Source of the DNA: Candidatus Abyssobacteria bacterium SURF_5 | GTDB lineage: Bacteria > Abyssobacteria > SURF-5 | Assembly: GCA_003598085.1 (NCBI GenBank) | Contig: QZKU01000106.1 | Span: 1-37,088, forward strand | Length of the DNA: 37,088 bases | Direction of reading: 5' to 3' | Shown: piece by piece, positions 6,215 to 37,088 of the stretch | Numbering within the stretch: position 1 is the stretch's first letter | How the letters are laid out: every line of letters begins with the position of its first letter | Notes under the pieces: model-generated | The model's input: the letters and a program-made list of their open reading frames with translations, nothing else | Told to the model about the DNA's origin: nothing | Database searches by the model: none | Position numbers and translations under genes: made by a program

Positions 6215-7945
6215 ATGGAAATTAAGAATTTCAACAATATTCGGAGGATGATCCTGATTCGGGTCCTCCTGGTTCCGTTTTTCACCATGATGCTTGTGTT
6301 TGGGACCCTCATATACTACTACGCGACCAACCTTCATAAACGTGTTCAGGAAAAACTCGCGTATATCGCCGAAGGGCATCGCGACCTGATCGAGCAATTC
6401 TTTCGAGAGCGCGCATTTGACCTTCAACAGGTTGCCTGCGCCAACAGCTTTGAGGAGCTCACATCTGAGGGACGGTTGACCGAGGTGTTCGATCAATTGC
6501 AGAAGCGTTCGCCGACCTTCTTCGATATCGGGGTCTTCGATGACGATGGTATCCACGTTGCTTATGTGGGGCCGTATTCCTTGGAGGGCAGGAATTACGC
6601 TCAGGCAGAGTGGTTCCCTCAGGCTCAGGAAAAGGACGTCTACATTTCAGACGTATTTCTCGGCAACCGCAATATCCCGCACTTCGTTATCGTCCACCGT
6701 CAGGAAGAGAACGATCGTGTATGGTACTTGCGGGCGACCATCGACACGTTCCTTTTCAACAACCTTGTTGAAAACATACGAATTGGGAAAACCGGAGAGG
6801 CATATCTTGTCAACGAGAATGGGCTGTTCCAGACGCGGCGACGTTCGGGGGGAGGTCTCATGGAGACCGATCCTGACCGAGCCACCTATCAAGTCGAAGC
6901 GAGCGACATCGTCTCGTTTACAGCCGAAGATCACGCGGGAGAGCGTTATGTGTACGCCACGGGACGATTACCCTCAACCGGTTGGCTCTGGGTAGTTCGT
7001 CAGGAGGTCGCAGACGCCCATGCGTCGCTCATACGAGCCGTGCTTATCGGACTCTATATTATCGTGGCCGGAGGGGCCATAGTGGTGACGACCGCCTTTC
7101 TTCTCGCCTCCAAAGTAGCCAATCAACTGACGGTCTGCGACCTTGAAAGACGCCGGATGGGCTGCCAGTTGATCATGGCGGGCAAGTTGGCTGAGGTGGG
7201 AGAGATGAGCGCGGGCGTGGCTCACGAAATCAACAATCCGCTTCAGGTGATGAAGTCGGAAGAGACCTTGATAAAAGACATTCTGGACGAGCTTGAAGCG
7301 GATGGAAAACTTGATAATACCGAAAATATTCAAACGCTTCGCGAATCGATTGATCAGATAGGACTTCAAATTGATCGATGCAAACAGATAATTCAGGGTC
7401 TTCTGGGATTCGCGCGAAAAGACCAGGCAACGATACAACCCACTGACTTGCGGTCATTGATACCGAGCGTGGTCGGCATGATCGAGCACCGCGCACAGAT
7501 GGAAAACATCCGGATCATCCAGGAATTCGAGTCCGATTTGCCACTGCTCCAAAGCGACGCAGCCCACCTTGAGCAGGTCTTGCTCAATCTGCTGAATAAT
7601 GCAATCGACGCACTCAAACAAAAGAACGGGGGGGAAATTCGCGTCACCGCGCGGTCGAGTGGGGATGACATCATGATGACGGTGGCCGACAATGGCTGCG
7701 GCATCGCTCCCGAGCATATCGAGAAAATCTTTCTCCCGTTCTTTACCACTAAACCTGTGGGGCAGGGAACGGGTCTTGGCCTGAGCACCTGCTACGGCAT
7801 TGTGGAAAACCTGGGCGGACAGATAACGGTTATGAGTGAATTGGATGCGGGCACCGCCTTCACTGTCCGCCTCCCAGTGGCTGGCCCACCCAGAAAGGCC
7901 AAAGACTGGCAAACGATTCACAAACAAGGGGGGGTGGCAAGATGA
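6215..7945 (+). CDS. Membrane sensor histidine kinase with extracytoplasmic Cache-like domain
   Basis: A 576-residue kinase. TM1 spans about residues 10-34 and is followed by a large extracytoplasmic region (about 35-265) of double-Cache type, with a motif typical of its membrane-distal fold ([12 protein letters not shown]). TM2 is about 268-297. The HisKA dimerisation helix has His337 in [12 protein letters not shown]. The HATPase domain shows the N box ([11 protein letters not shown]), G1 (DNGCGI), F box (FLPFFTTKP) and G2 ([11 protein letters not shown]). This is the NtrB/ZraS-like class, and Cache domains usually bind small organic acids or amino acids. The stop codon overlaps the ATG of the next gene by four bases, so kinase and first receiver are translationally coupled. 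The signal is unknown. Confidence 0.92.
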
Positions 7946-8397
7946 ATTCCATAAACTTGTTGATAGTCGATGACGAAAAACGGTTCTTGTCCACAGCCAA
8001 GAGACTCTTGGACAAGCGCGGAATGGACACAACGATTTGTAGCAACGGGCCGGACGCGCTGAAGATACTGGAAGAGTGTTCCATTGATGTGGTGCTCCTG
8101 GACATCAAGATGCCCGGCGGGATTGACGGGATGGAGTTGTTGCGAAGGATCAGACAGGAGCGCCCGGACATTGAGGTAATCCTGCTCACCGGTCATGTTT
8201 CCGTGGAATCAGCAGTGGAGGGATTGAAGTTGGGCGCGTTTGACTACTTATTGAAACCGCTGACGATCTCCGAAATACAAGCGAAGGTGGAGGAGGCATT
8301 TGCAAGGAAACAAACAAAAAAAGAGGTGGCCCGCCGTGAGGAGGTCGACGAGGGCACGGATCGTCCCTTGACCGCAGGCACGAGAAGCACCGGCTAA
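7942..8397 (+). CDS. Receiver-only response regulator, coupled to the kinase
   Basis: A CheY-like receiver (151 aa) with acidic cluster DDE at 10-12, phospho-acceptor Asp54 in LLDIKMP, Thr in LLTGH and Lys in LLKPL. The receiver ends near residue 120 and is followed by a short charged tail with no output domain. It overlaps the kinase stop by four bases (ATGA). It is the first of three similar receivers and probably takes the phosphoryl group from the upstream kinase, acting through protein contacts rather than DNA binding. Confidence 0.92.
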   Translation: MNSINLLIVDDEKRFLSTAKRLLDKRGMDTTICSNGPDALKILEECSIDVVLLDIKMPGGIDGMELLRRIRQERPDIEVILLTGHVSVESAVEGLKLGAFDYLLKPLTISEIQAKVEEAFARKQTKKEVARREEVDEGTDRPLTAGTRSTG

Positions 8398-8454
8398 GAC
8401 GTTGCCTGTGAGGCCTCCGGGCGGATGGGAACACGCTGAAAGGAGCATTCAGTC

Positions 8455-8904
8455 ATGAAGAAGAAGGGTATAATCCAGGTTTTGATCGTGGACGACGAGG
8501 ATCGATTTCGATCCACAACCAAAACCAATCTTGAGAAACGCGGATTCGAAGTAAGAGCCGCGGCCACGGGAGCCGAGGCCATCGAAGAGATAAGAAGGGA
8601 CGAGGTTGACGTAGTCGTTCTCGATGTGAAAATGCCAGGCATGGACGGTAACGAGGTTCTCCACAGAATGAAGGCCCTCAAGCCGGACCTCGAAGTGATC
8701 ATGCTCACCGGACACGGGACGATGCGGTCGGCGCTCATAGCCTTTCGCGATGAAGTGTTTGAATACCTGAGCAAGCCGTGCGACACCGATACTCTGGCCG
8801 ATACCATCCGGAATGCCGCCGCCCACAAAACGGGTTCGATACATGGCGCCGAATGGTATTCAATTTGGTCGAAGGCTGAACCGGGCAGCGTAGAGGAAGA
8901 TTAA
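8455..8904 (+). CDS. Receiver-only response regulator, second in tandem
   Basis: A CheY-like receiver (149 aa): DDE at 13-15, phospho-acceptor Asp57 in LDVKMPGMDG, Thr in LTGHG and Lys in LSKPC. No output domain follows. It shares the IVDDE-RF and LxKRGF pattern with its two neighbours, so the three look like products of tandem duplication. It starts 57 nt after the first receiver, with AAGGAG just upstream of the ATG. Confidence 0.92.
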   Translation: MKKKGIIQVLIVDDEDRFRSTTKTNLEKRGFEVRAAATGAEAIEEIRRDEVDVVVLDVKMPGMDGNEVLHRMKALKPDLEVIMLTGHGTMRSALIAFRDEVFEYLSKPCDTDTLADTIRNAAAHKTGSIHGAEWYSIWSKAEPGSVEED

Positions 8905-9001
8905 CCGGATACATCACATCCGGCGTGGGAGCCATTCACCGATGTTTGTTCCCGGCGCGCAGGCCGACGGGTCGCGGGGATTCCAGAATGGGGGATCGAG
9001 C

Positions 9002-9943
9002 ATGGGACAGAGCAAGCCAATCACAGTCTTAATCGTCGATGATGAGGATCGCTTCCGAATCACCACAACAGCCTCTCTCAAGAAGCGCGGCTTCGAAGTT
9101 ATCGCTGCATCAAGCGGAGACGAGGCGGTAGAGCACGTAAGACAGCACCGGGTCGACGTAGTGGTCATCGACATAAAGATGCCGGGAATGGATGGACACG
9201 AAACGCTTCGCAGGATAAAGAAGCTTACCCCCGAGGTCGAGGCTATTATACTTACTGGATACGGATCGCTTGACTCCGCACTCGAGGGATGGCGTGAGGG
9301 GGTGTTTGCGTTTCTGACCAAGCCTTCCAGCATTGACTTTCTTGCACAAAGAATCCGCGAAGCCTTTGATAAGAAGAACGGGACATCCATCCGGGAATGT
9401 CGGGTAAAAGATTTTATGGAGCCGCTATCAGCATTCATTCGAACCATCCATGAGGATCAATCCGTGGCCGAGGCAGTCGAGGCGATGCGCCGTTTCTTTG
9501 CAAGTACAATAAACGCGACGAAGCGCAGGGAAACCTTGCTCCGTTCCCTGCTGGTCACGGATAGACGCAACAAGATCGTCGGCGTTATCGGACTTTTCGA
9601 TCTCCTGCGCGGATTGCAGCCTCCTTGCCTGCGGTTATCCGATGACCGCTCGAGCACTGCCGATTCGATATATCTTGAGCCTTCCGTCTGCCTGGGCAGT
9701 TTCGTCATGATGGTTCGCGAGATGGCGTCACGAAAAGTCCGCGACCTGATGCCGGAACGGACTCCGACTATCGCCGCGGACGCAGACCTCATAGAAGCTG
9801 CGAACAGGCTTTTGTCTCTCAGGGTTCAAAGTCTGTTGGTTATGGACAAAGGGGAGCCCGTTGGAGTGCTTCGCGACAGCGACCTTTTCTTTGCGATGGC
9901 GGACACCATGAGGAAGCGTCCCGCTGATGTCATGTCTCATTGA
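9002..9943 (+). CDS. Response regulator with receiver and paired CBS motifs
   Basis: From this start the protein is 313 aa. Residues about 1-125 form a receiver with DDE at 13-15, Asp57 in VIDIKMPGMDG, Thr in LTGYG and Lys in LTKPS. Two CBS motifs follow: one beginning VKDFMEPLSAFI (about 138-210) and one beginning VRDLMPERTPTI (about 240-305) with a clear LLVMDKGEPVGVLRDSDL core. CBS pairs usually bind adenine nucleotides or S-adenosylmethionine, so this protein may combine phosphorylation with energy or nucleotide status. An in-frame ATG at 8942 exists, but the G-rich site at 8990-8995 is placed for 9002. It is the last gene of the kinase cluster. Confidence 0.9.
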   Translation: MGQSKPITVLIVDDEDRFRITTTASLKKRGFEVIAASSGDEAVEHVRQHRVDVVVIDIKMPGMDGHETLRRIKKLTPEVEAIILTGYGSLDSALEGWREGVFAFLTKPSSIDFLAQRIREAFDKKNGTSIRECRVKDFMEPLSAFIRTIHEDQSVAEAVEAMRRFFASTINATKRRETLLRSLLVTDRRNKIVGVIGLFDLLRGLQPPCLRLSDDRSSTADSIYLEPSVCLGSFVMMVREMASRKVRDLMPERTPTIAADADLIEAANRLLSLRVQSLLVMDKGEPVGVLRDSDLFFAMADTMRKRPADVMSH

Positions 9944-24781: not shown

Positions 24782-26143
24782 TTAGCTGTACGCGTTCTTC
24801 GGCGTGTAATCGAGCGGAGCGCCCGGCGGAATGGGCGGCTCTTTCTGCACGCTCTCGTTGAACTGGATGAGCAGCAGCCCCATGTGGAAAGCCACCCACG
24901 AATGCAGGTGCGGATAGTTCAGCGGCTTGCGCTCCTTCGGGTCCACGATCAGATTCACCAGGTTCGGATTCGGTATCGGCATCGCCGGGTCGGTGTAGTA
25001 GCGCTGCTCCATCAATTTCACCTTGAAGTTCTGCCATTTCGCGCCGTACAGCGTGGGACCGTTCCAGAAGAGGAAGCCTTCGCGGTTCGAATTCTCCTGT
25101 TTGCCTTCGAAGAACGCGCGCTGGTCGATGCCGTCGATGATGCGGTCGGACGGTACCTGGCAGCCGGCCCAGTTGAGCAGCGTGGTGAACATATCGGTGA
25201 TGTGAACGATCTCGTTGCTCTGACCGCCCGCGGGCACCTTCCCCGGATATCGGATCAGGCACGGCGTCCGTAATGAGCCCTCCATGCCGGTGAAATACGA
25301 GCCGTCGAAAAAGCCCGCCGTGCCGCGCCAGGGCTCAAGCTCTTCGGGGCCGTTGTCGCCGGAGAATACGATTATGGTGTCATCGGTGATCCCGAGCGCA
25401 TCCAGGTAATCCAGCAGGTCGCCGAAATCGGAATCGAGTTCGAGCATCGAATCGGCATAATCGTCGTTGCCGGTCTTCCCCTCGAATTCACGCCGCGGGA
25501 CCGTCGGCAGATGCATCATCGAATGATTGAAATAGAGGAAGAACGGCTTTTGGGCTTCGACGCTCTGCCTCAGGAACGCCTTCGCGCGGCTCATGTATTC
25601 GAGGTCGATATCCCGGCGCGCCTCGAGCGTCAGTTGCCGGACCGCCTCGATATCGCCGCCTTTCTTGCCTTCGAGAATATACGACATGGGGTCGCGCCTC
25701 GGGTCGTACCACGGGTCGTCCGGCCACAGGCACTCGTCGTAACTGCGCGGAATGCCGTACCACTCGTCGAATCCGTGATCGATCGGCCAGCGCCCCTTTT
25801 CGGCGCCGATGTGCCATTTGCCGTAACATGCGGTCGCATAGCCGGCCTCCGAGAGAATATCGCCCATCGTGCGCTCCCAAGCGACTATGCCGGTTCCCGT
25901 TCCCGCCAGCGCGACGGTATGCGTGCCGGAGCGGATCGAGTAGCGGCCGGTCATCAGAGCCGAGCGGGTGGGCGTGCATTGGGCCTCGGGCGCAAAATTG
26001 AGCAGCTTCAGGCCTTCGGAAGCAAATCGGTCGAGTCGGCGGGTCTCGGCGCCGCGAAGTATGCCGCCGCCGTAGCATCCGAGCTCGCCGAAGCCCAAAT
26101 TATCACACAAGACGTAAACAATGTTGGGGCGCATTTGATCCAT
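24782..26143 (-). CDS. Cys-type arylsulfatase-family sulfatase
   Basis: A 453-residue sulfatase with the formylglycine site C-T-P-T-R at Cys56, in EAQCTPTRSALMTGRYSIRSG. In the Cys-type consensus this Cys must be oxidised to formylglycine, here by the upstream anSME. A second metal-site region is FSGDNGPEE. The first metal motif is CDNLGFGELG: the usual Asp-Asp is Asp14-Asn15, seen in one known sulfatase subgroup. There is no signal peptide, so hydrolysis of a sulfate ester would take place in the cytoplasm after uptake. The start follows a purine-rich site in the 15-nt gap after the maturase. The substrate is not predictable. Confidence 0.92.
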   Translation of the reverse strand: MDQMRPNIVYVLCDNLGFGELGCYGGGILRGAETRRLDRFASEGLKLLNFAPEAQCTPTRSALMTGRYSIRSGTHTVALAGTGTGIVAWERTMGDILSEAGYATACYGKWHIGAEKGRWPIDHGFDEWYGIPRSYDECLWPDDPWYDPRRDPMSYILEGKKGGDIEAVRQLTLEARRDIDLEYMSRAKAFLRQSVEAQKPFFLYFNHSMMHLPTVPRREFEGKTGNDDYADSMLELDSDFGDLLDYLDALGITDDTIIVFSGDNGPEELEPWRGTAGFFDGSYFTGMEGSLRTPCLIRYPGKVPAGGQSNEIVHITDMFTTLLNWAGCQVPSDRIIDGIDQRAFFEGKQENSNREGFLFWNGPTLYGAKWQNFKVKLMEQRYYTDPAMPIPNPNLVNLIVDPKERKPLNYPHLHSWVAFHMGLLLIQFNESVQKEPPIPPGAPLDYTPKNAYS

Positions 26144-26158
26144 TCTCTCTCCTCTCCT

Positions 26159-27508
26159 CTATTCTCTCCCGTGGCACCGCTTGAATTTGAGGCCGCTCCC
26201 GCACGGACAGGGGTCGTTTCTGCCGGGCGCCGCAACTTTGATGTTTGCGCCCCCCTTTTCATATTGCAGAAGCTGAACGATCTCCGACGCCGGCCGGCGC
26301 CGGCGCAGAAGTTCCGCCATGATCTGCATCGGGCGATCAACATGCGCGAAGAACGATTTCAGGCCGGAGCAAAGATAATTCAACCCCGGCTCTCCGTTTG
26401 CTGTTTCAGAAAACCTGTTCTTTGGACATTCGCCGTGGCAGGCGAACAAAACATCGCACTCGCGGCATTGCTTCGGGAGCTTATCACGCTTACTTCGTCC
26501 AAATTCCCTCTGCTTTTCACAAACGGCGAGTTCAATGAGAGGCGTCTCCATGATGTTGCCGAGGTAGGACGCAGGTTCGACAAAATGATCGCATGAGTAA
26601 AGGTCGCCGCCATGTTCGAGCGCCATCGCAAACCCGCACTCCGGCGCCGTCGTGCACATCGCCGGCGGTGCTCCGACCCACGACGCCAGGGCCGCATCGA
26701 AATGGTTCACGAAAATTCTGCCCACGTCGCGCCTGACCCATTCATCGAAAATGGAACTCAGAAACCGGCCATATTGCTGAGGTTTCACCGATTCGGCGGT
26801 CACCGAATTTCCCGTTACGGCCGCAGAAGATCGAGACGAGTCAAGGCAGCCTTGCCCAGGGATTGAGCCGCCGCGGCGCATTTCCTCGCGCCGGTCGCGC
26901 TCGACAATCGGGATAAACTGGATGAACTGAATCCCGGCATTATCCCTCAAGAAGCGGTACACCTCGAGCGGGTGGTCCGCGTTTGCCGCGTTGACCGTGG
27001 TCAGGACGTTAACATCAACCTGATGCTGCTTCAGCAGCCCGAGAGCGCGCATCACTTTCTCGAATACCGATCGGCCGGCCTTATCCCTTCGGTAAGCGTC
27101 ATGCATCTCCTTCGGACCGTCAAGGCTCAGGCCGACAAGAAACTTGTGCTCGCGCAGAAATTCACACCAGCGGTCGTCAAGCAAGATGCCGTTCGTCTGG
27201 ATAGTGTTCTGGACGAATTGGCCCGGCTTCAGATATTTCCGCTCATATTCAATGGACTTATGGAAGAAATCGAGCCCCATCAGCGTTGGCTCGCCGCCTT
27301 GCCAGGCAACTGTCACCTGCGGGCTCTGATGCGCCTCGAGAACCTGCCGGATATATGCCTCGAGAACGTCTTCCGGCATCCGAAAACTGCTGCCGGCATA
27401 CAAGTTCTGCTTCTGAAGATAAAAGCAGTAGGCGCATTGCAGATTACAGGCGGCGCCGCTTGGCTTCGCCATCACGTGAATGGCAGGAGGACGAGTCTGT
27501 GAGGTCAT
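26159..27508 (-). CDS. Anaerobic sulfatase-maturating enzyme (radical SAM/SPASM) with SEC-C tail
   Basis: A 449-residue radical SAM enzyme. CxxxCxxC is Cys21-Cys25-Cys28 (ACNLQCAYCFY), followed by AWQGGEPTLMG, which fits SAM binding. The SPASM region has Cys clusters for two auxiliary [4Fe-4S] clusters, including the CRECDVLFACHGECPKNRF segment. This family converts the target Cys or Ser of sulfatases to formylglycine without oxygen, and the 15-nt distance to a CTPTR sulfatase makes that role almost certain. The last 30 residues add a SEC-C zinc motif (NDPCPCGSGLKFKRCHG) that is not part of ordinary anSMEs. The ATG lies 182 nt from the divergent arsR start. Confidence 0.93.
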   Translation of the reverse strand: MTSQTRPPAIHVMAKPSGAACNLQCAYCFYLQKQNLYAGSSFRMPEDVLEAYIRQVLEAHQSPQVTVAWQGGEPTLMGLDFFHKSIEYERKYLKPGQFVQNTIQTNGILLDDRWCEFLREHKFLVGLSLDGPKEMHDAYRRDKAGRSVFEKVMRALGLLKQHQVDVNVLTTVNAANADHPLEVYRFLRDNAGIQFIQFIPIVERDRREEMRRGGSIPGQGCLDSSRSSAAVTGNSVTAESVKPQQYGRFLSSIFDEWVRRDVGRIFVNHFDAALASWVGAPPAMCTTAPECGFAMALEHGGDLYSCDHFVEPASYLGNIMETPLIELAVCEKQREFGRSKRDKLPKQCRECDVLFACHGECPKNRFSETANGEPGLNYLCSGLKSFFAHVDRPMQIMAELLRRRRPASEIVQLLQYEKGGANIKVAAPGRNDPCPCGSGLKFKRCHGRE

Positions 27509-28699: not shown

Positions 28700-29260
28700 T
28701 CGGCGACCAGTTGAAGACATCCTCACTACGATTCGTCAGAATTGCAGTTCCAAGATTCTTGCCTCGAGGAGACGTGTCATGGTGTTACCTGCCGCGGGCA
28801 GTCTCTAATTTCAGTTGCTTATGACGTGGCGAAAGTCCGAAGACGAAGAAGTGATTAGATCTGCGGAGTGCGTGGATCAAAATCCTCGGCCCGAGTCTTT
28901 GCCATTGGGGATCTGAGACGACTGAAAGTCCCCCTGTATCTTTCCCCATGGTGAACAACCGAGATTAATTTCTTCAATACTTCTTATACCCCTCTTTGCA
29001 TGCCGCGGGCGGCCTCTTAAAAACGCCTGAAAAGTTTTTTATCGCCCGAAGCCGTGACCGCCATGCCGCCGGAATCTGAAAAGGCGAGCGTCCTCCTTTG
29101 CCGCTTGCTTACCTGTCTCCCCTGCAGCAAGTCGAAGGCTAAGTTCAATAAGCTCAAATAGTTTTAAGGAAACATCAGCCGGATTTCAGCGGGTTTTATT
29201 GTGTTGAAAATATTCGCGTCTCAAAATCCCGCGTGGTTCCGCCTTTTTTCTACGCAGATG

Positions 29261-29273
29261 CAACTTTTAGTTG
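29261..29273. promoter_or_regulatory. Possible operator, CAACT-TTT-AGTTG
   Basis: A perfect 5-bp-arm palindrome overlapping the first bases of the -35 box. It could be an operator for one of the XRE-cupin proteins downstream, though such short repeats also arise by chance. Confidence 0.3.
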
Positions 29274-29299
29274 ACAAAAGATTTTTTCTATGCTAGGAT
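29271..29299 (+). promoter_or_regulatory. Strong sigma70 promoter of the XRE-cupin array
   Basis: TTGACA at 29271-29276, 17-nt spacer, TAGGAT at 29294-29299, with the extended -10 TGC just before it. The spacing is ideal. It lies about 300 nt upstream of the first regulator gene, so the mRNA would carry a long leader. Confidence 0.75.
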
Positions 29300-29540
29300 T
29301 ACTGAAGACCAAGTTGCGTGGTTATGATGCTTATTTTCAGTGAATGAATGCGCTGGGAGCCGCTGCACGCTGTGAAGCGGGTTCATATTTGTTCATCTCG
29401 AAAACACCTATGCCGGTAGAAGAAGACGCTCCCTAACCCATTCCCAGTTCGTACGATCTGAGCGTTTCACGGCATTCACGCCGTCTCCGTCACTGAATTT
29501 CAGCCGCGCCGGAAATTGTGCAGGATACGTAGAGGTGCTT

Positions 29541-29562
29541 TCCGCTTATGGGTTCAAGCGGA
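29541..29562 (+). other. Leader hairpin before the first XRE-cupin gene
   Basis: TCCGCTT and AAGCGGA arms, 7 bp, around an 8-nt loop, ending 32 nt before the ATG and 20 nt before the ribosome site. It could affect translation or stability of the leader. No terminator T-run follows. Confidence 0.4.
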
Positions 29563-29594
29563 GGTAATAAACAGAAACCAAAAGGGAGAAGGAA

Positions 29595-30146
29595 ATGGAA
29601 GTAAACATCGGAGAACGTCTGAAGAAAGTGCGGCTTGAAAAGGGATACACCCTAAAAGATGTAGCCGCCAAGTCAGGGTACTCAAAGGCCCTTATTTCCC
29701 GCATCGAGAACGGGAACGTGTCACCATCAATCAATTCCCTCCTGAAGATCGCATCAGCGCTTGAAGTGAAACCTCATGACCTGTTCTTACCGGCAAAAGA
29801 TGCCGAGCCTACAGTGGTTCATAAGGCGGAACGCAAGAAAGTGAAGATGAATGGAGGAAAGGCGGAGGTCGAATTCCTGACGGTCCAGAGCGGCGACAAG
29901 AAAATTGAGCCGCTGCTGATCACAGTCGAGCGAGGCGCGTCCACCGGCGGCGAACTCGGCGGTCACAACGGCGAAATCTGGACGATGCAACTGAAGGGAC
30001 GGATGGAGCTTGTGCTTGGTGAGAAGAAGCACACGCTTGAAGAAGGCGACTGCGCTTACTTCAAGAGTTCGGTTCCGCACAGCTTCAAGAACGTCGGAAA
30101 GAGCAAGTCGGTGGCTTTCTGTGTTATCACCCCTCCGCGCAATTAG
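29595..30146 (+). CDS. XRE-cupin transcriptional regulator, copy 1 of 4
   Basis: A 183-residue regulator. The helix-turn-helix of the Cro/C1 type (about 5-60) has GYSKALISRIENGNVSPS as recognition helix and following loop. The C-terminal cupin-2 domain (about 105-178) keeps His and Glu in GGHNGEIW and a second His in SSVPHSF, so a metal ion could still bind. This family usually represses or activates catabolic, polyamine or sulfur genes in response to a small ligand. GGGAGAAGG precedes the ATG. It is the first of four tandem paralogues and follows the strong promoter at 29271. The target genes are unknown. Confidence 0.93.
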   Translation: MEVNIGERLKKVRLEKGYTLKDVAAKSGYSKALISRIENGNVSPSINSLLKIASALEVKPHDLFLPAKDAEPTVVHKAERKKVKMNGGKAEVEFLTVQSGDKKIEPLLITVERGASTGGELGGHNGEIWTMQLKGRMELVLGEKKHTLEEGDCAYFKSSVPHSFKNVGKSKSVAFCVITPPRN

Positions 30147-30265
30147 CTAAAATCAGGCGCGCGTGCAAGCATGAGCTGGAGCGGCGGCGTTTGGGGAGGA
30201 AACGCGGCATAGCGATGCGGATTCGAAAGCGTGCGACGCAGTTGAGATAACATGAGGAGGAGACC

Positions 30266-30808
30266 ATGACACTGGGCGAGAAGTTGAAGAAGCTGCGTCT
30301 CGAAAAGAAGATGACCCTTCAGGATGTGGCGGATCAGACCGGTTACTCGAAGGCCCTCATCTCGCGCATCGAAAACGATTCCGTTTCGCCGTCGGTCGGT
30401 TCGCTCATGAAGGTGTCGGCCGCTTTGCAGATCAAACTGCATGAGCTGTTCGCCTCGATCGAGGGCAGCAAGATCTCGGTCGTCAAGAAGGGAGGCCGCG
30501 AATCCTTCCTTACCCGTGACGGAATCAAAATCGAAAATCTCTGCTTCCTCTCGGGCGGGCGCAAGATGGACGCCGTGATCAAGACGTTCGATTCCGGCGC
30601 CGCAACGGAGCGTGTAGCTGAAGAAAAAGCAGCCGAGGAGTGGTGGTATGTGTTGAAGGGCAAATTGGCGGTTTCCTTCGACGAGCGAACGGCGCAATTG
30701 AACGAAGGAGACAGCTTGTACGTCGTTTCGGCAAACATACGCAAATGGCGCAATCCCGGAAAGGGAAAAACATCGGCTCTCGTGGTGACGACGCCGCCGC
30801 TGAGCTGA
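30266..30808 (+). CDS. XRE-cupin transcriptional regulator, copy 2 of 4
   Basis: A 180-residue paralogue of copy 1 with the same domains. The HTH core GYSKALISRIEN is identical and VSPSVGSL follows. The cupin domain (about 100-175) has lost every usual metal ligand: the first motif reads EEKAAEEWWYVLKGK and the second reads ANIRKWRN, with no His. It therefore probably binds an organic ligand, or none. GAGGAGGAG precedes the ATG. It lies 119 nt after copy 1 with no obvious promoter in the gap. Confidence 0.92.
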   Translation: MTLGEKLKKLRLEKKMTLQDVADQTGYSKALISRIENDSVSPSVGSLMKVSAALQIKLHELFASIEGSKISVVKKGGRESFLTRDGIKIENLCFLSGGRKMDAVIKTFDSGAATERVAEEKAAEEWWYVLKGKLAVSFDERTAQLNEGDSLYVVSANIRKWRNPGKGKTSALVVTTPPLS

Positions 30809-30933
30809 GTGGACACATGGAGGTGGTGAGACAGGCGCCGAAGCAACACCGACATTACGGGCGGCGATAGAGACAGTGGAAGCACGACCAGATCGCGGCA
30901 GTTCATGTTCGAGTCCAAGCGGAGAACGATCAG

Positions 30934-31479
30934 ATGCAGAAGCTGGGGGATTTCCTCAAGCAAGCCCGCCTCTCACGAGAAATGACTCTGGAGGAGTTAT
31001 CTGAAAAGTGCGGGTATTCAAAGGCCCTTATCTCGAGGGTTGAAAATAACAATGTTTCGCCTTCGATCACGTCGCTGGCGCAAATGGCGGCCGCCCTGGA
31101 GTTGAAGCTCTATGACGTATTCGCCTCATGCGATGGTGACGAGCCGGTTATTGTGAGGAAGGACGAACGGAGAAGGTTCTCGCAAATGGATGGCAGGCAG
31201 GATATAGAATTCCTTACGAATGGTGCATACGCGAAGAAGATGCAGCCTCTTTTGATCTCCTTGAACAACGGACTGAATGACAACACATGCACCGGACATA
31301 AGGGAGAAGAATTCCTTCACATCCTGCAGGGAAAGGCCGAGGTTGTCGTCAATGGCGCGCGCTTCATTCTCGGCGCTGGTGACAGCATCCATTTCAGGTC
31401 GTCGTCCCCTCATTGTTATAGGGGGATTGGAAAAGGTAAAACCATTTCGCTCAAGGTCGTCAGTCCCCCATTTTACTGA
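30934..31479 (+). CDS. XRE-cupin transcriptional regulator, copy 3 of 4
   Basis: A 181-residue paralogue. The HTH core CGYSKALISRVENNNVSPS matches the other copies, and its MTLEELSEKCGYSKAL stretch is closest to copy 4. The cupin keeps His and Glu in GHKGEEFLH and a His in SSPHCYRG, so like copy 1 it may bind metal. A Cys precedes the first motif (TCTGHKG). GCGGAGAA lies upstream of the ATG. The 125-nt gap from copy 2 holds no recognised feature. Confidence 0.92.
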   Translation: MQKLGDFLKQARLSREMTLEELSEKCGYSKALISRVENNNVSPSITSLAQMAAALELKLYDVFASCDGDEPVIVRKDERRRFSQMDGRQDIEFLTNGAYAKKMQPLLISLNNGLNDNTCTGHKGEEFLHILQGKAEVVVNGARFILGAGDSIHFRSSSPHCYRGIGKGKTISLKVVSPPFY

Positions 31480-31526
31480 CATGGTTTCTACATGGTTTCA
31501 GCATGCAAAAGGAGAAACAAGGTAAC

Positions 31527-32069
31527 ATGAACATTGGAAAAGAACTCAAACGCATCAGGGTTTCGCAGGGGATGACGCTTGAGGAACTGTCGAACAAGTG
31601 CGGTTACTCAAAAGCGCTGATCTCGCGCGTCGAAACCGGATCCGTATCGCCCTCTCTCACATCCCTGATGAAGATGGTAACCTCGCTGGGATTGCAGTTG
31701 CACGATCTGTTCACCTCAATCGAGCAAAGTCAGGCCTCGGTGGTTCGAAAGGGCGAAGGCCGGAAATTCTACACCGAAAGCGAGTCCGCCACCGAATATC
31801 TGGCTAACAACATCGCCAATAAAAAGATGGAGCCGCTGAAAATAACGGCGCCGTCCGACTATTCCTCCGGCGACGAGCCGATTTCGCACTACGGCGAACA
31901 GTTCCTGTTCGTGCTCGACGGGAAGATCGAGATTACGACCGGCGAACAAACGCACAAGCTGAGCGCGGGCGACAGCGTCTATCTCGCAGCGGGGACCCCG
32001 TATTCCTGGCGCAACAGCGGCAAGGAAACCGCGGAAGTTATCAGCGTTATCACGCCGCCGCAAATTTAG
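31527..32069 (+). CDS. XRE-cupin transcriptional regulator, copy 4 of 4
   Basis: From the ATG at 31527 the protein is 180 aa, matching its paralogues; an in-frame ATG at 31503 would add eight residues and lies upstream of the ribosome site (AGGAGA 31510-31515). The HTH core CGYSKALISRVETGSVSPS is conserved. The cupin has His and Glu in SHYGEQFLF, but the second-motif His is replaced by Tyr (GTPYSWRN), so metal binding is doubtful. It follows copy 3 by 47 nt and is the nearest regulator to the sulfur-transfer island, from which a bidirectional terminator separates it. Confidence 0.92.
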   Translation: MNIGKELKRIRVSQGMTLEELSNKCGYSKALISRVETGSVSPSLTSLMKMVTSLGLQLHDLFTSIEQSQASVVRKGEGRKFYTESESATEYLANNIANKKMEPLKITAPSDYSSGDEPISHYGEQFLFVLDGKIEITTGEQTHKLSAGDSVYLAAGTPYSWRNSGKETAEVISVITPPQI

Positions 32070-32125: not shown

Positions 32126-32174
32126 CCCGATCCGATATCCTGCGGGCGCGGGGATCGGATCGGGATTTTCTTTT
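32126..32174. terminator. Bidirectional intrinsic terminator
   Basis: Arms CCCGATCCGAT (32126-32136) and ATCGGATCGGG (32154-32164) form an 11-bp stem with a GC-rich loop, followed on the plus strand by ATTTTCTTTT. On the other strand an A-run before the left arm gives a T-run. It closes both the XRE-cupin array and the convergent sulfur operon. Confidence 0.85.
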
Positions 32175-32179
32175 CGCTT

Positions 32180-33205
32180 CTACTCAATCCGCCATGGCGA
32201 CAGCCGTTCGTCGCTGATCGGCTGCACCTCGAGCAGTTCTTCCTCCCCATTCATCCGGCTGCGGATTACGAGACTGGCTTCATTCCGTCCTTTGCTGTAA
32301 CGCGCTGTGATTGAGGCCGCCACCAGCTTGGATTCTCCCGATATGTCTGCGGGCGCCAGCGTCACCGGCCCCAGGCCGTCGACAACCTGCATCTGCAGGA
32401 GACGTTGTCCCAGGCGCTCGAGCTTTTCGTTTTCCTTTTCATCGCGGCCGACGATTATCTTTGAGCCATCCGCCAAACGGAAATGCCGGCCATACTTCAA
32501 AAGCCGCATGTCGGCGAACGTGGCATCAGGCTTGTGCTCCAGCAGCTCACGCAATTTCCGCCCGTATATCTTGTCCGCCAGAAGACAGCCGCCCGCAGGG
32601 CAGGCGTAGTCATGGATTCCCTTCTCCGCCGCCAGCCGAATCTGTGGTTTGCGGCTTCTGCCCCTGATAGAAAGCATCTTCTCGCGGTCGATAAGCCCTT
32701 CTTGCTCCGGCTTGCTTGGCGGCAACAGCTTCGCGCAGAGCGGGCGAACCACCAGCCCATCTAAACCGCTCTCGCGCTCGATCGTTCTGATGGCATGCAT
32801 ATGCTGCGACATCGGTCTCTGGCCGAGCACTTCGCCCGTCACAATGAAATCCGCGCCGGTTCTTTCCATGTATTCTTTTGCTTTGCGAAACATGAAAATA
32901 CGGCAATCGATGCAGGGATTCATGCTCGAGCCCCAGCCGTGCGGGGGATGCTTGATGATGTCCAGATAGTCGTCGGTCACGCTGAACACCGAGAGCTTCA
33001 GGCCGAGCGCCTCACTCATGCGGCGCGCCTCGCTGCCGCACCCTTCGCGCCTGCGCTCGCTCGTGCACTGGCAGAAAATCGTCTTGAAATTGACCGCCTC
33101 GACTTCGACCCCCATATCAAGGAGGATACTGACCGCCAAAGTGCTGTCCAGCCCCCCTGAAAGAAGGGCTATCGCTCTTGGTTTTCTCCTGGTTTCTTTT
33201 TCCAT
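32180..33205 (-). CDS. PP-loop tRNA-thiolase-like protein with NFACT-R-like tail
   Basis: A 341-residue protein. The ATP-pyrophosphatase PP-loop is SGGLDS at 16-21. Cys-rich motifs follow: CQC and GCG (Cys45, 47, 56), NPCIDC (Cys98 and 101) and ACPAGGC (Cys202 and 207). Residues about 225-265 resemble the NFACT-R RNA-binding domain (YGRHFRLADGSKIIVGRDEKENEKL). Known PP-loop enzymes of the MnmA/ThiI/TtuA group adenylate tRNA and insert sulfur from a persulfide or thiocarboxylate donor, so I infer an RNA thiolase. The NPCxxC pair may form a redox-active site or bind a cluster. It is the last gene of the TusA-MoeB unit, 44 nt after the second MoeB-like gene. Confidence 0.8.
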   Translation of the reverse strand: MEKETRRKPRAIALLSGGLDSTLAVSILLDMGVEVEAVNFKTIFCQCTSERRREGCGSEARRMSEALGLKLSVFSVTDDYLDIIKHPPHGWGSSMNPCIDCRIFMFRKAKEYMERTGADFIVTGEVLGQRPMSQHMHAIRTIERESGLDGLVVRPLCAKLLPPSKPEQEGLIDREKMLSIRGRSRKPQIRLAAEKGIHDYACPAGGCLLADKIYGRKLRELLEHKPDATFADMRLLKYGRHFRLADGSKIIVGRDEKENEKLERLGQRLLQMQVVDGLGPVTLAPADISGESKLVAASITARYSKGRNEASLVIRSRMNGEEELLEVQPISDERLSPWRIE

Positions 33206-33249
33206 GTCCTCTTATTCCGTTCCCTCCGGAGTATGCGGAGCCTGCGTGC

Positions 33250-34050
33250 TCAGGTTTCACATTCCAGCGGGTATTCAATCAGCTCTTTGATTGTGGGGCT
33301 ATCGCCGCACAGGGGGCATCTTGGATTGCGCCTGAAAGCAACTTCCCTGAACGTCCCCGACAGCGCTTCGTAAATGATCAGCCTTCCGTTCAACGGCTTT
33401 CCTATATTCAGAATCAGCTTGATCGCCTCGGTCGCCTGCAGAATGCCCAAGACCCCGGCGACCGCCCCCAGTATGCCGGCCTCCTGACAACTCGGAACCG
33501 CGCCGACGGGCGGCGGCTCGGGAAAAAGACAGCGGTAACACGGGCCTTTCGCCGGCAGGATTGTCATTACCTGCCCGAGAAACTGAAGCACCCCCGCCTC
33601 GACCAGCGGTTTTTCCCGGAGGTAACATGCGTCGTGGAGCAGATAGCGCGAAGCGAAATTATCGACACCGTCTACTATGACATCGTACGACTCGATCGTC
33701 TTTTCGACGTTCGATCTGGCGAGCCGCAGGGAGTGCCGCTCAACCTCGACACCCGGGTTCAGCGAGTAAAGCTTATCGGCCGCAGAATCAACCTTCGGCC
33801 TGCCGATATCGGACGTCCGATGCAGGATCTGGCGCTGCAAGTTGCTGATCTCGACCACGTCGCTGTCAACTATTCCCAGCACACCGACGCCTGCCGCCGC
33901 AAGATAATATGCGGCCGGCGAGCCTAGTCCGCCCGTTCCCACCAGAAGCACCCGCGCATTCCGAAGCTTCTTCTGGCCGACTCCCCCGATTTCCTTCAAA
34001 ACGATGTGGCGGCTGTAGCGTTTTATTTCCTGTTCGCTCAGTTCGCTCAT
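33250..34050 (-). CDS. MoeB/ThiF-family E1-like adenylyltransferase, second copy
   Basis: A 266-residue Rossmann-fold adenylyltransferase with the nucleotide motif GTGGLGSPAAYYLAAAG (about 37-53) and RHSLRLARSN-type region after it. Zn ligands are CYRC (in GPCYRCLFPEPPP) and CPLC near the C-terminus. Enzymes of this class activate the C-terminal Gly of a sulfur carrier (MoaD, ThiS) as an acyl-adenylate. It is similar in length and motifs to the other MoeB/ThiF in this island at 35779-36603, but their neighbours differ: this one lies between TusA and the PP-loop protein. It has no rhodanese domain, so sulfur must come from elsewhere. Confidence 0.92.
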   Translation of the reverse strand: MSELSEQEIKRYSRHIVLKEIGGVGQKKLRNARVLLVGTGGLGSPAAYYLAAAGVGVLGIVDSDVVEISNLQRQILHRTSDIGRPKVDSAADKLYSLNPGVEVERHSLRLARSNVEKTIESYDVIVDGVDNFASRYLLHDACYLREKPLVEAGVLQFLGQVMTILPAKGPCYRCLFPEPPPVGAVPSCQEAGILGAVAGVLGILQATEAIKLILNIGKPLNGRLIIYEALSGTFREVAFRRNPRCPLCGDSPTIKELIEYPLECET

Positions 34051-34062
34051 CTCTTCACGTAC

Positions 34063-34311
34063 CTATGCATTTGCTTTCAGAATCAGGATTTGCCAGTCGG
34101 AATCGTTCACCTTGCTGACGCCAAGAATTTCGTTGCCCTCGTTTTCCATGCTTCTCGGCACGTTCCTTGTCGCCGGTTCATAATCCACGATCACCCGCAG
34201 GATCTGGCCCGGTCTCATTTCCTCGATCGCCAGCTTCGACCTGACGAAAGTGTACGGGCATATCTCACCCTTCAGATTCAGTTCCTTATCCGGAGTATGC
34301 TCAGTGCCCAC
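34063..34311 (-). CDS. TusA/SirA-family sulfur carrier
   Basis: A small TusA-like protein (82 aa from the GTG at 34311) with the persulfide-carrying Cys18 in KGEICPYTFVRSKLAIEEM, the typical CPxP-like helix start of the family, although Pro after the second position is Tyr-Thr here. TusA accepts sulfane sulfur from a desulfurase and hands it to TusBCD or to other acceptors. GTG at 34311 is preferred because GGAGGA lies 8 nt upstream; a GTG at 34329 would include the ribosome site. It starts the second transcription unit of the island, 12 nt before the second MoeB. Confidence 0.88.
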   Translation of the reverse strand: MGTEHTPDKELNLKGEICPYTFVRSKLAIEEMRPGQILRVIVDYEPATRNVPRSMENEGNEILGVSKVNDSDWQILILKANA

Positions 34312-34337
34312 AACAATGATCCTCCACACCGTTTTTC

Positions 34338-34346
34338 ATTATAGCA
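34338..34346 (-). promoter_or_regulatory. Extended -10 promoter before tusA
   Basis: Minus-strand TGCTATAAT, a perfect extended -10, 26 nt upstream of the GTG start. There is no good -35, which an extended -10 does not need. Confidence 0.55.
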
Positions 34347-34434
34347 GAATTTTCGCCGGGTCATCCGGCTTTCAGAGACGCCCGAAAAGGATAATTGCCG
34401 GAATGAGGAATGCTCGAGACGGAACTGACGCGAA

Positions 34435-34692
34435 CTACCAGGTTATCACGCGGTCGTACTCGAAAATCATGTCGGCGATGCGGTCATAATCGACAAGCTC
34501 GTGATCGGTTTGCACGCCGCGCGCCTGCACGTCTTCAGAACAGGCGTAGGTCTTCAGGCCAAATGAATCGGCATACACGCCGTCCTGTATCATGAGAAGC
34601 GCCTGCTCGACTCCATCGAGCCGATTGATCGCCTCGACAAGCCGAAGCGCCAGCCCGTCATCGTGATTCCTGATTATGTGCAGCACTTTCAT
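34435..34692 (-). CDS. DsrH/TusB-family protein
   Basis: An 85-residue protein of the DsrE/F/H fold, with the short length and C-terminal YDRVITW of the TusB/DsrH group. It has a Cys51 in TYACSEDVQARG, where DsrE-like members have a sulfur-binding Cys. It follows the DsrF-like gene by 6 nt, and the order DsrE-DsrF-DsrH matches E. coli tusD-tusC-tusB. It is probably a subunit of a hetero-hexameric sulfur-relay complex. The symbol tusB is not assigned, because the partner TusE is absent here. Confidence 0.78.
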   Translation of the reverse strand: MKVLHIIRNHDDGLALRLVEAINRLDGVEQALLMIQDGVYADSFGLKTYACSEDVQARGVQTDHELVDYDRIADMIFEYDRVITW

Positions 34693-34698
34693 ATTTTC

Positions 34699-35043
34699 TC
34701 AGTACCGGATAACCGAATCGCTTTCGAGCAACATGCGGGCGGCATCATCCCGCGATATGAGCTCCACCGCAACGGAAACGTCTCCTCGATATCTCTCGGT
34801 AATTGATTCCCGCTCCGCAAAGAGCCGGTGGCCGAGCTGGCGCAGCGTCTCGATGTGGCGTATGTATTCCGCCATGCCCAATCTCCCGGGCTCGGTCTTG
34901 AGGAGCGAATAGACGCCGTCGCCGATAAAAAGAACCTGTACCGAGTCGCCGCACAGGGTCAAGCCCACCCCCATCCGGAGGGCTTCCGTCGCGCGCACGG
35001 TTTTCAGCGGTGATTGTGAAATGAGAATCGTGGTGGTCTTCAT
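34699..35043 (-). CDS. DsrF/TusC-family protein
   Basis: A 114-residue DsrE/F-like protein, with a first strand TTTILISQSPLKTVRATEALRMGVGL and a GDSVQVLFIGDGVYSLLK segment, the usual middle of TusC/DsrF. It lacks a clear catalytic Cys at the DsrE position; TusC subunits are typically structural. It sits 3 nt after the DsrE-like gene and 6 nt before the DsrH-like gene and ends in DSVIRY, as in other members. Confidence 0.8.
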   Translation of the reverse strand: MKTTTILISQSPLKTVRATEALRMGVGLTLCGDSVQVLFIGDGVYSLLKTEPGRLGMAEYIRHIETLRQLGHRLFAERESITERYRGDVSVAVELISRDDAARMLLESDSVIRY

Positions 35044-35046
35044 GGC

Positions 35047-35358
35047 TCAGCAGAAAGCGATTACTCTATCAGAATCGCGGATATTACATGCGAAATCGTA
35101 CTGGCTCCCCAGCATGACGCCGTTCGTTTCGTCCTGAAAGCGCTCGTTCAAGTTCTGCTGGCAAAGGCAGATGTTGGCGCCTTTGTCGAGCAGCGAAAGG
35201 AACGGGACGTGGTTGACGTTGAGGACGCCGTCGCACATCAGAAAAATGCGCACCTCGATCCCGCGTCGCAGAGCGGCTTCGGCGACCCTGATGACGCTAT
35301 GCGTATTGGCGTGCTCGGGACTCGTCGTCAAAAGGATTCCCAACCTCTTTGCGGTCAT
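35047..35358 (-). CDS. DsrE/TusD-family protein
   Basis: A 103-residue DsrE-like protein with an early GILLTTSPEHANTHSVIRVAEAA helix region, a CDGVLNVNH segment, and Cys64 and Cys66 in ICLCQQNLNERF; one of these occupies the catalytic Cys position of TusD/DsrE. The ATG overlaps the stop of the JAMM gene by four bases, and the longer open frame reaching 35490 is merely shadowing it. It would accept sulfur from TusA and pass it to a downstream acceptor. Confidence 0.85.
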   Translation of the reverse strand: MTAKRLGILLTTSPEHANTHSVIRVAEAALRRGIEVRIFLMCDGVLNVNHVPFLSLLDKGANICLCQQNLNERFQDETNGVMLGSQYDFACNIRDSDRVIAFC

Positions 35359-35801
35359 ACCGGCTGATCCTCCCTCAAGCTCAGCGCCTGCTCCAGAAAC
35401 GAACCGTTCTCCTGGGGCATGATCCACGACTGCGCCGAGACCGCCCGCGCCTTTTCGACCGATACGATCAGGTACGAATAGCCCGGCCATGCGGCATGCT
35501 CGGTATCATATTGAGATGGCGTGCTCGGATAGTCGGGATGAGAATGATAGAAACCAATCACATCTTCCGCTTTGCCGCGGGTGGATTTAATCACCTCGAT
35601 GAGTTTCCTCTCGTCCACCAGGTAGCGATCATGCCGCCGCTCGGTGCTTACGTTCTTTGCGCGATGAGCTTTAGTTACAATGCGCTCGTCGCCGTTGTCG
35701 AACCCGACAAGGATGCCGCAGCATTCGTCCGGATACTCATCGAGAGCATGCCGGTAAATGTCATCGAGGATTTTGCGCTCAATCATCAACATGATCGCCA
35801 T
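35355..35801 (-). CDS. JAMM/MPN+ metalloprotease
   Basis: A 148-residue MPN+ peptidase with all catalytic ligands: Glu26 in DECCGIL, His86 and His88 in HSHP, Ser96 and Asp99, exactly fitting E-Xn-H-X-H-X7-S-X2-D. Bacterial JAMM enzymes process ubiquitin-like sulfur carriers, either by removing C-terminal residues after Gly-Gly (as QbsD does on QbsE) or by releasing an amino acid (as Mec does on CysO). Here it lies between a MoeB/ThiF gene (23-nt overlap) and DsrE (4-nt overlap). The carrier upstream ends in Gly-Gly-Arg, so removal of Arg is its likely job. Confidence 0.92.
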   Translation of the reverse strand: MAIMLMIERKILDDIYRHALDEYPDECCGILVGFDNGDERIVTKAHRAKNVSTERRHDRYLVDERKLIEVIKSTRGKAEDVIGFYHSHPDYPSTPSQYDTEHAAWPGYSYLIVSVEKARAVSAQSWIMPQENGSFLEQALSLREDQPV

Positions 35802-36603
35802 TCCCGCTCAACCCGCAAAATTCGTCGTAGTCGATCAGTTCCTTGATCGTGGCGTTCTTCCCGCAAACCGGACACTGCGGGTCCTTGCGCAGCTTGAACT
35901 CGCGGAATTTCATGCCGAGCGCATCAAACTGCAGCAGTCGCCCCACCAGCGGTTTCCCGACCCCGAGAATAAGCTTTTGCGTCTCGACCGCCTGTAGAGT
36001 TCCGATGATGCCCGGCAGCACCCCCAATACACCCGCCTCCTGACAACTCGGAACCATGCCCGGAGGAGGCGGCTGCGGGTATTGACAGCGATAGCACGGC
36101 CCCTGGGCGGCATCGAAAACGGTGACATGCCCCTCAAATAACAGCACACTGCCGTGCACGTTCTTCTTCCCGAGGAGCACGCAGGCGTCGTTGATCAGAT
36201 AACGCGTCGCAAAGTTGTCGCAGCCGTCGATAATGATGTCGTACTCCCTGAACAGGTCCAAGGCGTTTTGTGAAGTCAGCCGCTCCTTGTAAGCCCTCAC
36301 GCGAACATCCGGATTCAGCGCCTCAATCGTCCTTCGAGCCGATTGCACTTTCGGCAGGTCCAAATCCTGCACCGTGTGCAGAATCTGCCTCTGAAGATTG
36401 CTCAGATCGACTGTATCGAAGTCAAGAACCCCGAGTTCGCCTACGCCCGCGGCGGCAAGATACAGCGCGCACGGCGATCCCAGCCCGCCGGCGCCGATGA
36501 TAAGCACTTTCGATTCGAGCAGTTTCTTCTGCCCTTTTCCGCCGACTTCCTTCAATATGATGTGGCGGCTATAGCGCTTGATCTGTTCGTCGGTTAGGTT
36601 CAT
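35779..36603 (-). CDS. MoeB/ThiF-family E1-like adenylyltransferase, first copy
   Basis: A 274-residue E1-like enzyme with RYSRHIILKEVGGKGQKKL at the N-terminus, GAGGLGSPCALYLAAAG nucleotide loop (about 37-53), and Zn ligands CYRC (in GPCYRCQYPQPPP) and CPVC near 250. It would adenylate the C-terminus of the MoaD/ThiS-like carrier encoded 8 nt upstream, preparing it for thiocarboxylation. The downstream JAMM gene overlaps it by 23 nt, so the three are translationally linked. It has no rhodanese domain, so sulfur should come from the Dsr/Tus proteins or a desulfurase elsewhere. Confidence 0.93.
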   Translation of the reverse strand: MNLTDEQIKRYSRHIILKEVGGKGQKKLLESKVLIIGAGGLGSPCALYLAAAGVGELGVLDFDTVDLSNLQRQILHTVQDLDLPKVQSARRTIEALNPDVRVRAYKERLTSQNALDLFREYDIIIDGCDNFATRYLINDACVLLGKKNVHGSVLLFEGHVTVFDAAQGPCYRCQYPQPPPPGMVPSCQEAGVLGVLPGIIGTLQAVETQKLILGVGKPLVGRLLQFDALGMKFREFKLRKDPQCPVCGKNATIKELIDYDEFCGLSGNGDHVDD

Positions 36604-36611
36604 CTTCCCCT

Positions 36612-36884
36612 CTACCGCCCTCCCGCAATGGCGGGAACTATCGAAAGCTCGTCCTCCTCATTCACCGGCGTATCAAGACTCTGTAGAAAGCGGATGTCCT
36701 CATCGTTTACATAAATATTGACGAACCGGCGAAGGCCCCCGTTCTCCAGCAGCCGGTGCTTCATCCCCGAATAGCTGCGGTCCAGGTCCTCGATAATCTC
36801 AGCCACCGTCGCGCCGGCGGCCGTCACTTCCTCCGCTCCGCCGCTGAACCTTCTCAAAGGTACTGGAATACGAACTACTGCCAT
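36612..36884 (-). CDS. MoaD/ThiS-like ubiquitin-fold sulfur carrier with C-terminal Gly-Gly-Arg
   Basis: A 90-residue beta-grasp sulfur carrier. It has the MoaD-type arrangement, with NGGLRRFVNIYVNDEDIRFL in the middle and the family end PAIAGG near the C-terminus. One residue, Arg, follows Gly-Gly, so the precursor cannot be adenylated until a protease trims it. The ATG at 36884 lies 6 nt after GGAGGAG, whereas TTG at 36890 is too close. It begins the island's first operon: carrier, E1, JAMM and DsrE/F/H. It probably becomes a thiocarboxylate donor for cysteine, methionine, cofactor or RNA thiolation; which one is unknown. Confidence 0.9.
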   Translation of the reverse strand: MAVVRIPVPLRRFSGGAEEVTAAGATVAEIIEDLDRSYSGMKHRLLENGGLRRFVNIYVNDEDIRFLQSLDTPVNEEDELSIVPAIAGGR

Positions 36885-37088
36885 AACCAACTCCTCCTAC
36901 CCAAAATTCGAGAACACAATACTGATTTCACTCTGACGAACATGAATTTCGATTTATCAGCGGAAATCGCCGAACCGCGGATCTCCTTCTAACTCATTTT
37001 CGACAGTTTGAAAAATTAAGCTATTTTGTATCAAGAACTTACAGAGACAGAAAAAGCTCTAGGCACTACATTTTCTCTGGCTCTCTCT

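Follow-up and report, generated by a model that had tools for sequence, protein, structure and literature searches.

In Pseudomonas, the XRE-cupin transcription factors ErfA, PsdR, PauR and others are repressors of adjacent genes; they bind palindromes as dimers, at consensus sites that are quite different from one another (PMC7901475). In Caulobacter, the XRE paralogs RtrA, RtrB, CdxA and CdxB share a common motif, have overlapping sites and form heteromers (PMC10688885). E. coli SutR (YdcN) is, as cited in PMC8464067, an XRE-cupin regulator of sulfur utilisation. Here we analyse XC1 to XC4, four XRE-cupin genes of an Abyssubacteria-like genome, from a poorly known group of subsurface bacteria without cultured members. 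In the open-licence literature we found no description of a conserved tandem XRE-cupin array with one recognition helix.

Like the Pseudomonas proteins, those of the array combine an N-terminal XRE helix-turn-helix (HTH) with a C-terminal cupin, are of similar length and are encoded beside metabolic genes (PMC7901475). The former are local regulators with differing consensus sites, whereas here four genes stand in one row and encode an identical recognition helix. The Caulobacter paralogs are likewise a radiation with similar DNA-binding domains, and their heteromers and overlapping sites provide a mechanistic precedent. However, they have been described neither as cupin proteins nor as a single tandem array, and their DNA-binding domains are 64-80% alike, against 52-63% here. 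SutR shares the architecture, the length and a connection to sulfur, and its helix (GVSKAMLGQIE) is partly similar, but it is a single gene with a different helix core. Orthology to SutR was rejected on the basis of 24-26% identity and a separate long branch in the tree, and assignment to the PuuR equivalog (NF007408) on scores of 50-76 bits against a curated cut-off of 211. The top structural and best full-length sequence match is a Vibrio cholerae HTH_3/cupin regulator (PDB 1y9q), with 22-28% identity to the array proteins. Its whole-chain TM of about 0.5 indicates that the relative placement of the domains differs from that in our models. Also new at this locus is one predicted promoter block before XC1, conserved in all three genera compared.

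The window, by which we mean the whole stretch of DNA analysed, is an entire 37-kb contig of a 5.1-Mb genome. Within it, XC1 to XC4 are intact ORFs on the same strand (Table 1). All four exceed the Pfam cut-offs for an N-terminal HTH_3 domain (41.9-55.9 bits; cut-off 23) and a C-terminal Cupin_2 domain (37.8-57.4 bits; cut-off 27.2), both AlphaFold models contain a beta-barrel cupin, and both have XRE-cupin 1y9q as their best PDB match. The HTH-cupin architecture proposed for all four genes in an earlier note on this DNA is thus confirmed, and they are members of the known XRE-cupin transcription factor family. The paralogs are about 40% identical to one another, with 40 invariant alignment columns. 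From the alignment, XC4 probably starts at ATG 31527. Elsewhere in the window (6215-9943), three separate receiver-domain genes come after a histidine kinase gene, and the third of them has a C-terminal part resembling CBS repeats.

Table 1. Coordinates of the array, its predicted control elements and the neighbouring operon in the window.
Feature	Position	Strand	Remarks
Promoter block TCTAC-N6-GCAAC-N6-TTGACA, with dyad CAAC-N5-GTTG at 29261-29273 over -35	29249..29276	+	Candidate autoregulatory operator
Presumed array promoter	29271..29299	+	TTGACA, 17-nt spacer, TG-extended TAGGAT; conserved in three genera
XC1, XRE-cupin regulator	29595..30146	+	HTH core GYSKALISR at 29676-29702; orthologs 82-83% in two other genera
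XC2, XRE-cupin regulator, most degenerate cupin ligand set	30266..30808	+	Core 30341-30367; orthologs 57-58%
XC3, XRE-cupin regulator	30934..31479	+	Core 31012-31038; ortholog 53% in G002, absent in G001
XC4, XRE-cupin regulator	31503..32069	+	Core 31602-31628; orthologs 77-79%
Terminator-like hairpin, boundary of array and sulfur operon	32126..32164	.	z -5.5; hairpins at same place in G001, G002
Convergent sulfur-transfer operon	32180..36896	-	CysO-like, MoeB, JAMM, DsrE, DsrF, DsrH, TusA, MoeB, ThiI-like with NFACT-R_2; possible target

The central observation concerns the peptide GYSKALISR, which is invariant in XC1 to XC4. In the AlphaFold2 model of XC1 (mean pLDDT 88.6; helix 2 at residues 20-27, helix 3 at residues 31-38), it is predicted to form the turn and most of recognition helix 3. 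Across 13 family sequences, 20 of 64 HTH columns are invariant compared to 7 of 111 cupin columns, and a run of nine consecutive invariant HTH columns was reached in only 0.025% of column permutations (p = 0.00025). When 386 genomes were searched with a degenerate DNA pattern encoding the peptide, 13 matches were obtained, five in the genome of the window and four apiece in two members of its family. All are XRE-cupin genes of the Abyssubacteria-like family; the other 383 genomes gave none, and neither did a reversed-pattern control in the 386. The fifth match in the window's genome is a dispersed gene, XC5 (G000:C42:71106-71645). XRE-cupins of other lineages read, for example, VSASFLSQIE, FSSALLSQIE or VSxSFLSQIE at this helix and, given the absence from 383 genomes, a generic family motif is ruled out. 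The invariant core claimed in the earlier note therefore stands and proves to be family-specific; it is present in all four tandem genes as stated, and also in a fifth copy elsewhere in the genome.

Recent gene conversion is ruled out as the source of this identity by the motif codons: between window paralogs, 4-6 of the 9 are different, every difference being synonymous. We interpret these synonymous differences to indicate that purifying selection on the protein holds the helix. The "shared DNA-reading head" of the earlier note applies to the recognition helix, which is identical, but not to the complete HTH, which is merely 52-63% identical between the window paralogs; the loop after helix 3 reads ENG, END, ENN or ETG. 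Since HTH residues outside helix 3 differ, the half-sites could differ too. Alternatively, then, the genes may encode four independent local regulators, in which the helix is a frozen clade trait, each protein finds its own operators by means of its other HTH residues and its dimer geometry, and the row marks a site of duplication. The divergence of the HTHs, every one of which has its own pattern of conservation across genera, fits such a history, as do the differing consensus sites of Pseudomonas XRE-cupins (PMC7901475). Counter to this, the nine residues of turn and helix 3 have stayed constant across 13 genes in five paralog groups, in contrast to the drift of the remaining sequence, and we regard independence as rather unlikely.

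Our comparison set consisted of three metagenome-assembled genomes (MAGs), that of the window and two relatives, both 91-92% complete: G002, named Abyssobacteria SURF_17, and G001, a groundwater MAG that is labelled Poribacteria and falls in the same family. Contigs JACRIR010000161.1 and JACRIR010000156.1, titled Candidatus Poribacteria, are Abyssubacteria-like by array and kinship, and the title looks misassigned. Searching related genomes thus recovered the array in two other genera. XC1 to XC4 stand in the same order in G002, and XC1, XC2 and XC4 do so in G001; XC3 was not found in the array of that 91-92% complete MAG, and we read it as lost there. In a maximum-likelihood tree, the XC1, XC2 and XC4 groups each have bootstrap support of 100 and the XC3 group 99, and dispersed XC5 is sister to XC3 (99/95). 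These orthologous groups place the duplications before the three genera; judged from gene order and tree, the array is ancient and lineage-specific. Four adjacent copies, called unusual in the earlier note, are so in our sample: two XRE-cupins together are fairly common, occurring at 5 of 38 inspected loci outside the Abyssubacteria-like family, and three or more were seen at none of these. In a wider search of 386 genomes, none of the matches listed outside the family had at least three in one stretch. A further XRE-cupin of different helix (GFSSALLSQIE; L080, 8148-12512) adjoins genes for apparent 2-oxoacid:ferredoxin oxidoreductase subunits, and a similar arrangement occurs in G001 (L081).

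Identity to the window orthologs is 82-83% for XC1, 77-79% for XC4, 57-58% for XC2 and 53% for XC3, and the HTHs of XC1 and XC4 are 92-100% identical between genera. The faster evolution of XC2 and XC3 (53-58% versus 77-83%) could mean that only XC1 and XC4 are functional, and that the other two are relaxed copies on their way to being lost. The loss of XC3 in G001 and of most cupin ligand residues in window XC2 are compatible with such decay. However, all copies are intact ORFs, the exact core is kept in every genome and XC2 is retained in all three genera, and we find decay very unlikely. By the same token, an intact array kept in three genera argues against silent copies, which the earlier note had allowed for.

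The cupin parts differ widely, as had been claimed, with 30-36% identity between window paralogs. The conserved His/His/Glu/His set of metal-binding cupins was not found: the first His is absent in all, the second and last His are not constant even among orthologs, and window XC2 retains the Glu alone. Metal sensing therefore lacks support and is improbable; these domains more likely form small-molecule pockets. Together with the identical helix, their divergence suggests that several signals may act through the same DNA sites.

Where such sites might lie is best indicated by the DNA before XC1, which holds the best sigma-70-like promoter of our scan (Table 1). The scan as a whole returned no more sites than shuffles, and thus the case for this promoter rests on conservation. 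When aligned on TTGACAAAA, the three genera have in common TCTAC-N6-GCAAC-N6-TTGACAAAA followed by a TG-extended -10, and the remaining upstream DNA differs between them, as does the spacing from the start codon (104-324 nt). Random placement yielded a shared 5-nt run once in 20,000 trials; the real promoters contain two. GCAAC and the -35 together form an imperfect dyad, CAAC-N5-RTTG, that is conserved at the array promoter in three genera. We consider it a candidate shared autoregulatory operator, because a repressor bound at a -35 dyad would block RNA polymerase. Dyads of single promoters were within shuffle expectation, and no dyad common to the promoters of the array and the sulfur operon and to the gaps between the array genes convincingly exceeded shuffles. 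The want of a shared dyad in these places favours independent regulators, whereas recognition of a single conserved promoter in the array, that before XC1, counts against them.

TCTAC-N6-GCAAC occurs once in the genome of the window, at the array promoter, and this search found it before no other regulator. Other matches to GCAAC-N5-RTTGAC lie mostly inside ORFs, and on these two grounds a genome-wide regulon defined by the promoter element was rejected. The presumed 5' leader of XC1 (window 29300-29594) is about 290 nt long in the window and G001 and about 75 nt in G002. It has no Rfam match, on which basis a riboswitch or known RNA was rejected, and its first 150 nt fold no better than shuffles. 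At XC5, the copy in the window's genome carries CAAC-N4-GTTG at -48, and in that of G001 (L078, about 9207-9300) the presumed promoter contains TTGACTTTTCTGCATTTAG duplicated in tandem.

The array lies tail-to-tail with the same sulfur-transfer operon in each of the three genera; the carrier protein of this operon is ThiS/SAMP1-like (CysO-like). In G001 and G002 this operon includes a CysM-like cysteine synthase gene between MoeB and the JAMM gene. The window operon has no CysM-like gene, and the MoeB and JAMM ORFs overlap there (35355-36603). Going by its protein families, the operon resembles a thiocarboxylate route of the CysO-CysM-Mec type joined to a Tus/Dsr relay. No other window gene is syntenic in the compared stretches of G001 and G002; orthologs of window GlgC and anSME are on other contigs in the relatives. 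The anaerobic sulfatase-maturase-like radical SAM protein (orthologs 69-70% in both relatives; SEC-C-like C-terminus) adjoins a Cys-type sulfatase (CTPTRSA) in the window at 24782-27508, a natural pair.

The array and the sulfur operon are separate units: they converge, and strong hairpins lie between the two in each of the three genomes (z -5.5, -7.0 and -6.1). The earlier note had inferred from position that the sulfur island was the target. That idea gains from the finding that this block alone is syntenic in three genera, which goes beyond position only, and loses from the convergent layout, the hairpins and our dyad and promoter-element searches, which revealed no array-type operator ahead of the sulfur operon. 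Accordingly, the sulfur genes are a possible target by virtue of conserved position, and the convergent layout leaves this role open to doubt. The array may instead control itself and unrelated distant genes, with the sulfur operon a bystander that has remained next to it through chance or an absence of rearrangement. The same layout, hairpins and missing element would be expected of a bystander, and the widespread ThiI-like gene is common without an XRE-cupin beside it; no general association of the two was seen in the roughly 1.5-kb flanks of 27 outside loci. Set against this are the shared synteny of array and sulfur block, the sole such stretch found in two other genera, and the tendency of XRE-cupins to regulate their neighbours (PMC7901475). 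Control restricted in this manner seems to us possible, if somewhat doubtful.

Looking across the entire analysis, we give about an even chance to the reading that XC1 to XC4 form one ancient operon, an autoregulated multi-input module of local repressors on a shared operator, with the sulfur genes as its likeliest outside target. To a similar degree, we read the proteins as co-transcribed, sub-functionalised local XRE-cupin repressors with a common DNA specificity. The comparisons above support a selection-held helix joined to divergent, orthologously maintained cupins. Under this best reading, XC1 to XC4 would be transcribed together from the conserved promoter. The half-sites of all four would most likely be identical or very similar, because all carry the same recognition helix. 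They would bind at least their own promoter, where the -35 dyad CAAC-N5-GTTG is the best candidate site, and act there as local repressors of their own operon. A different cupin sensor on each protein would bring several inputs to the shared operator, and subunits may perhaps be mixed into hetero-oligomers. The sulfur-transfer genes (CysO/Mec/DsrEFH/TusA) would be the most likely outside target, since Pseudomonas XRE-cupins usually regulate adjacent genes (PMC7901475). Counting against the best reading, XC3 is dispensable, having been lost in G001, and the sulfur operon is convergent, not divergent as in the classical shared-operator pair. A more specific scheme, in which the four co-transcribed proteins with their frozen helix form homo- and heterodimers on one set of operators and integrate signals by subunit exchange, is in our judgement unlikely.

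The candidate promoter block, about 50 bp long, lends itself to direct tests with purified proteins. Should the shared-helix reading prove right, the array would represent a natural design for bringing several metabolite signals to one operator, in which the sensor is changed and the reader frozen, and such a design would have been kept over genus-level divergence. It would extend the scheme of the Caulobacter XRE paralogs to ligand-sensing cupin regulators. It would also link XRE-cupins to the control of a CysO/Mec/DsrEFH sulfur-relay operon in a phylum without cultured members.
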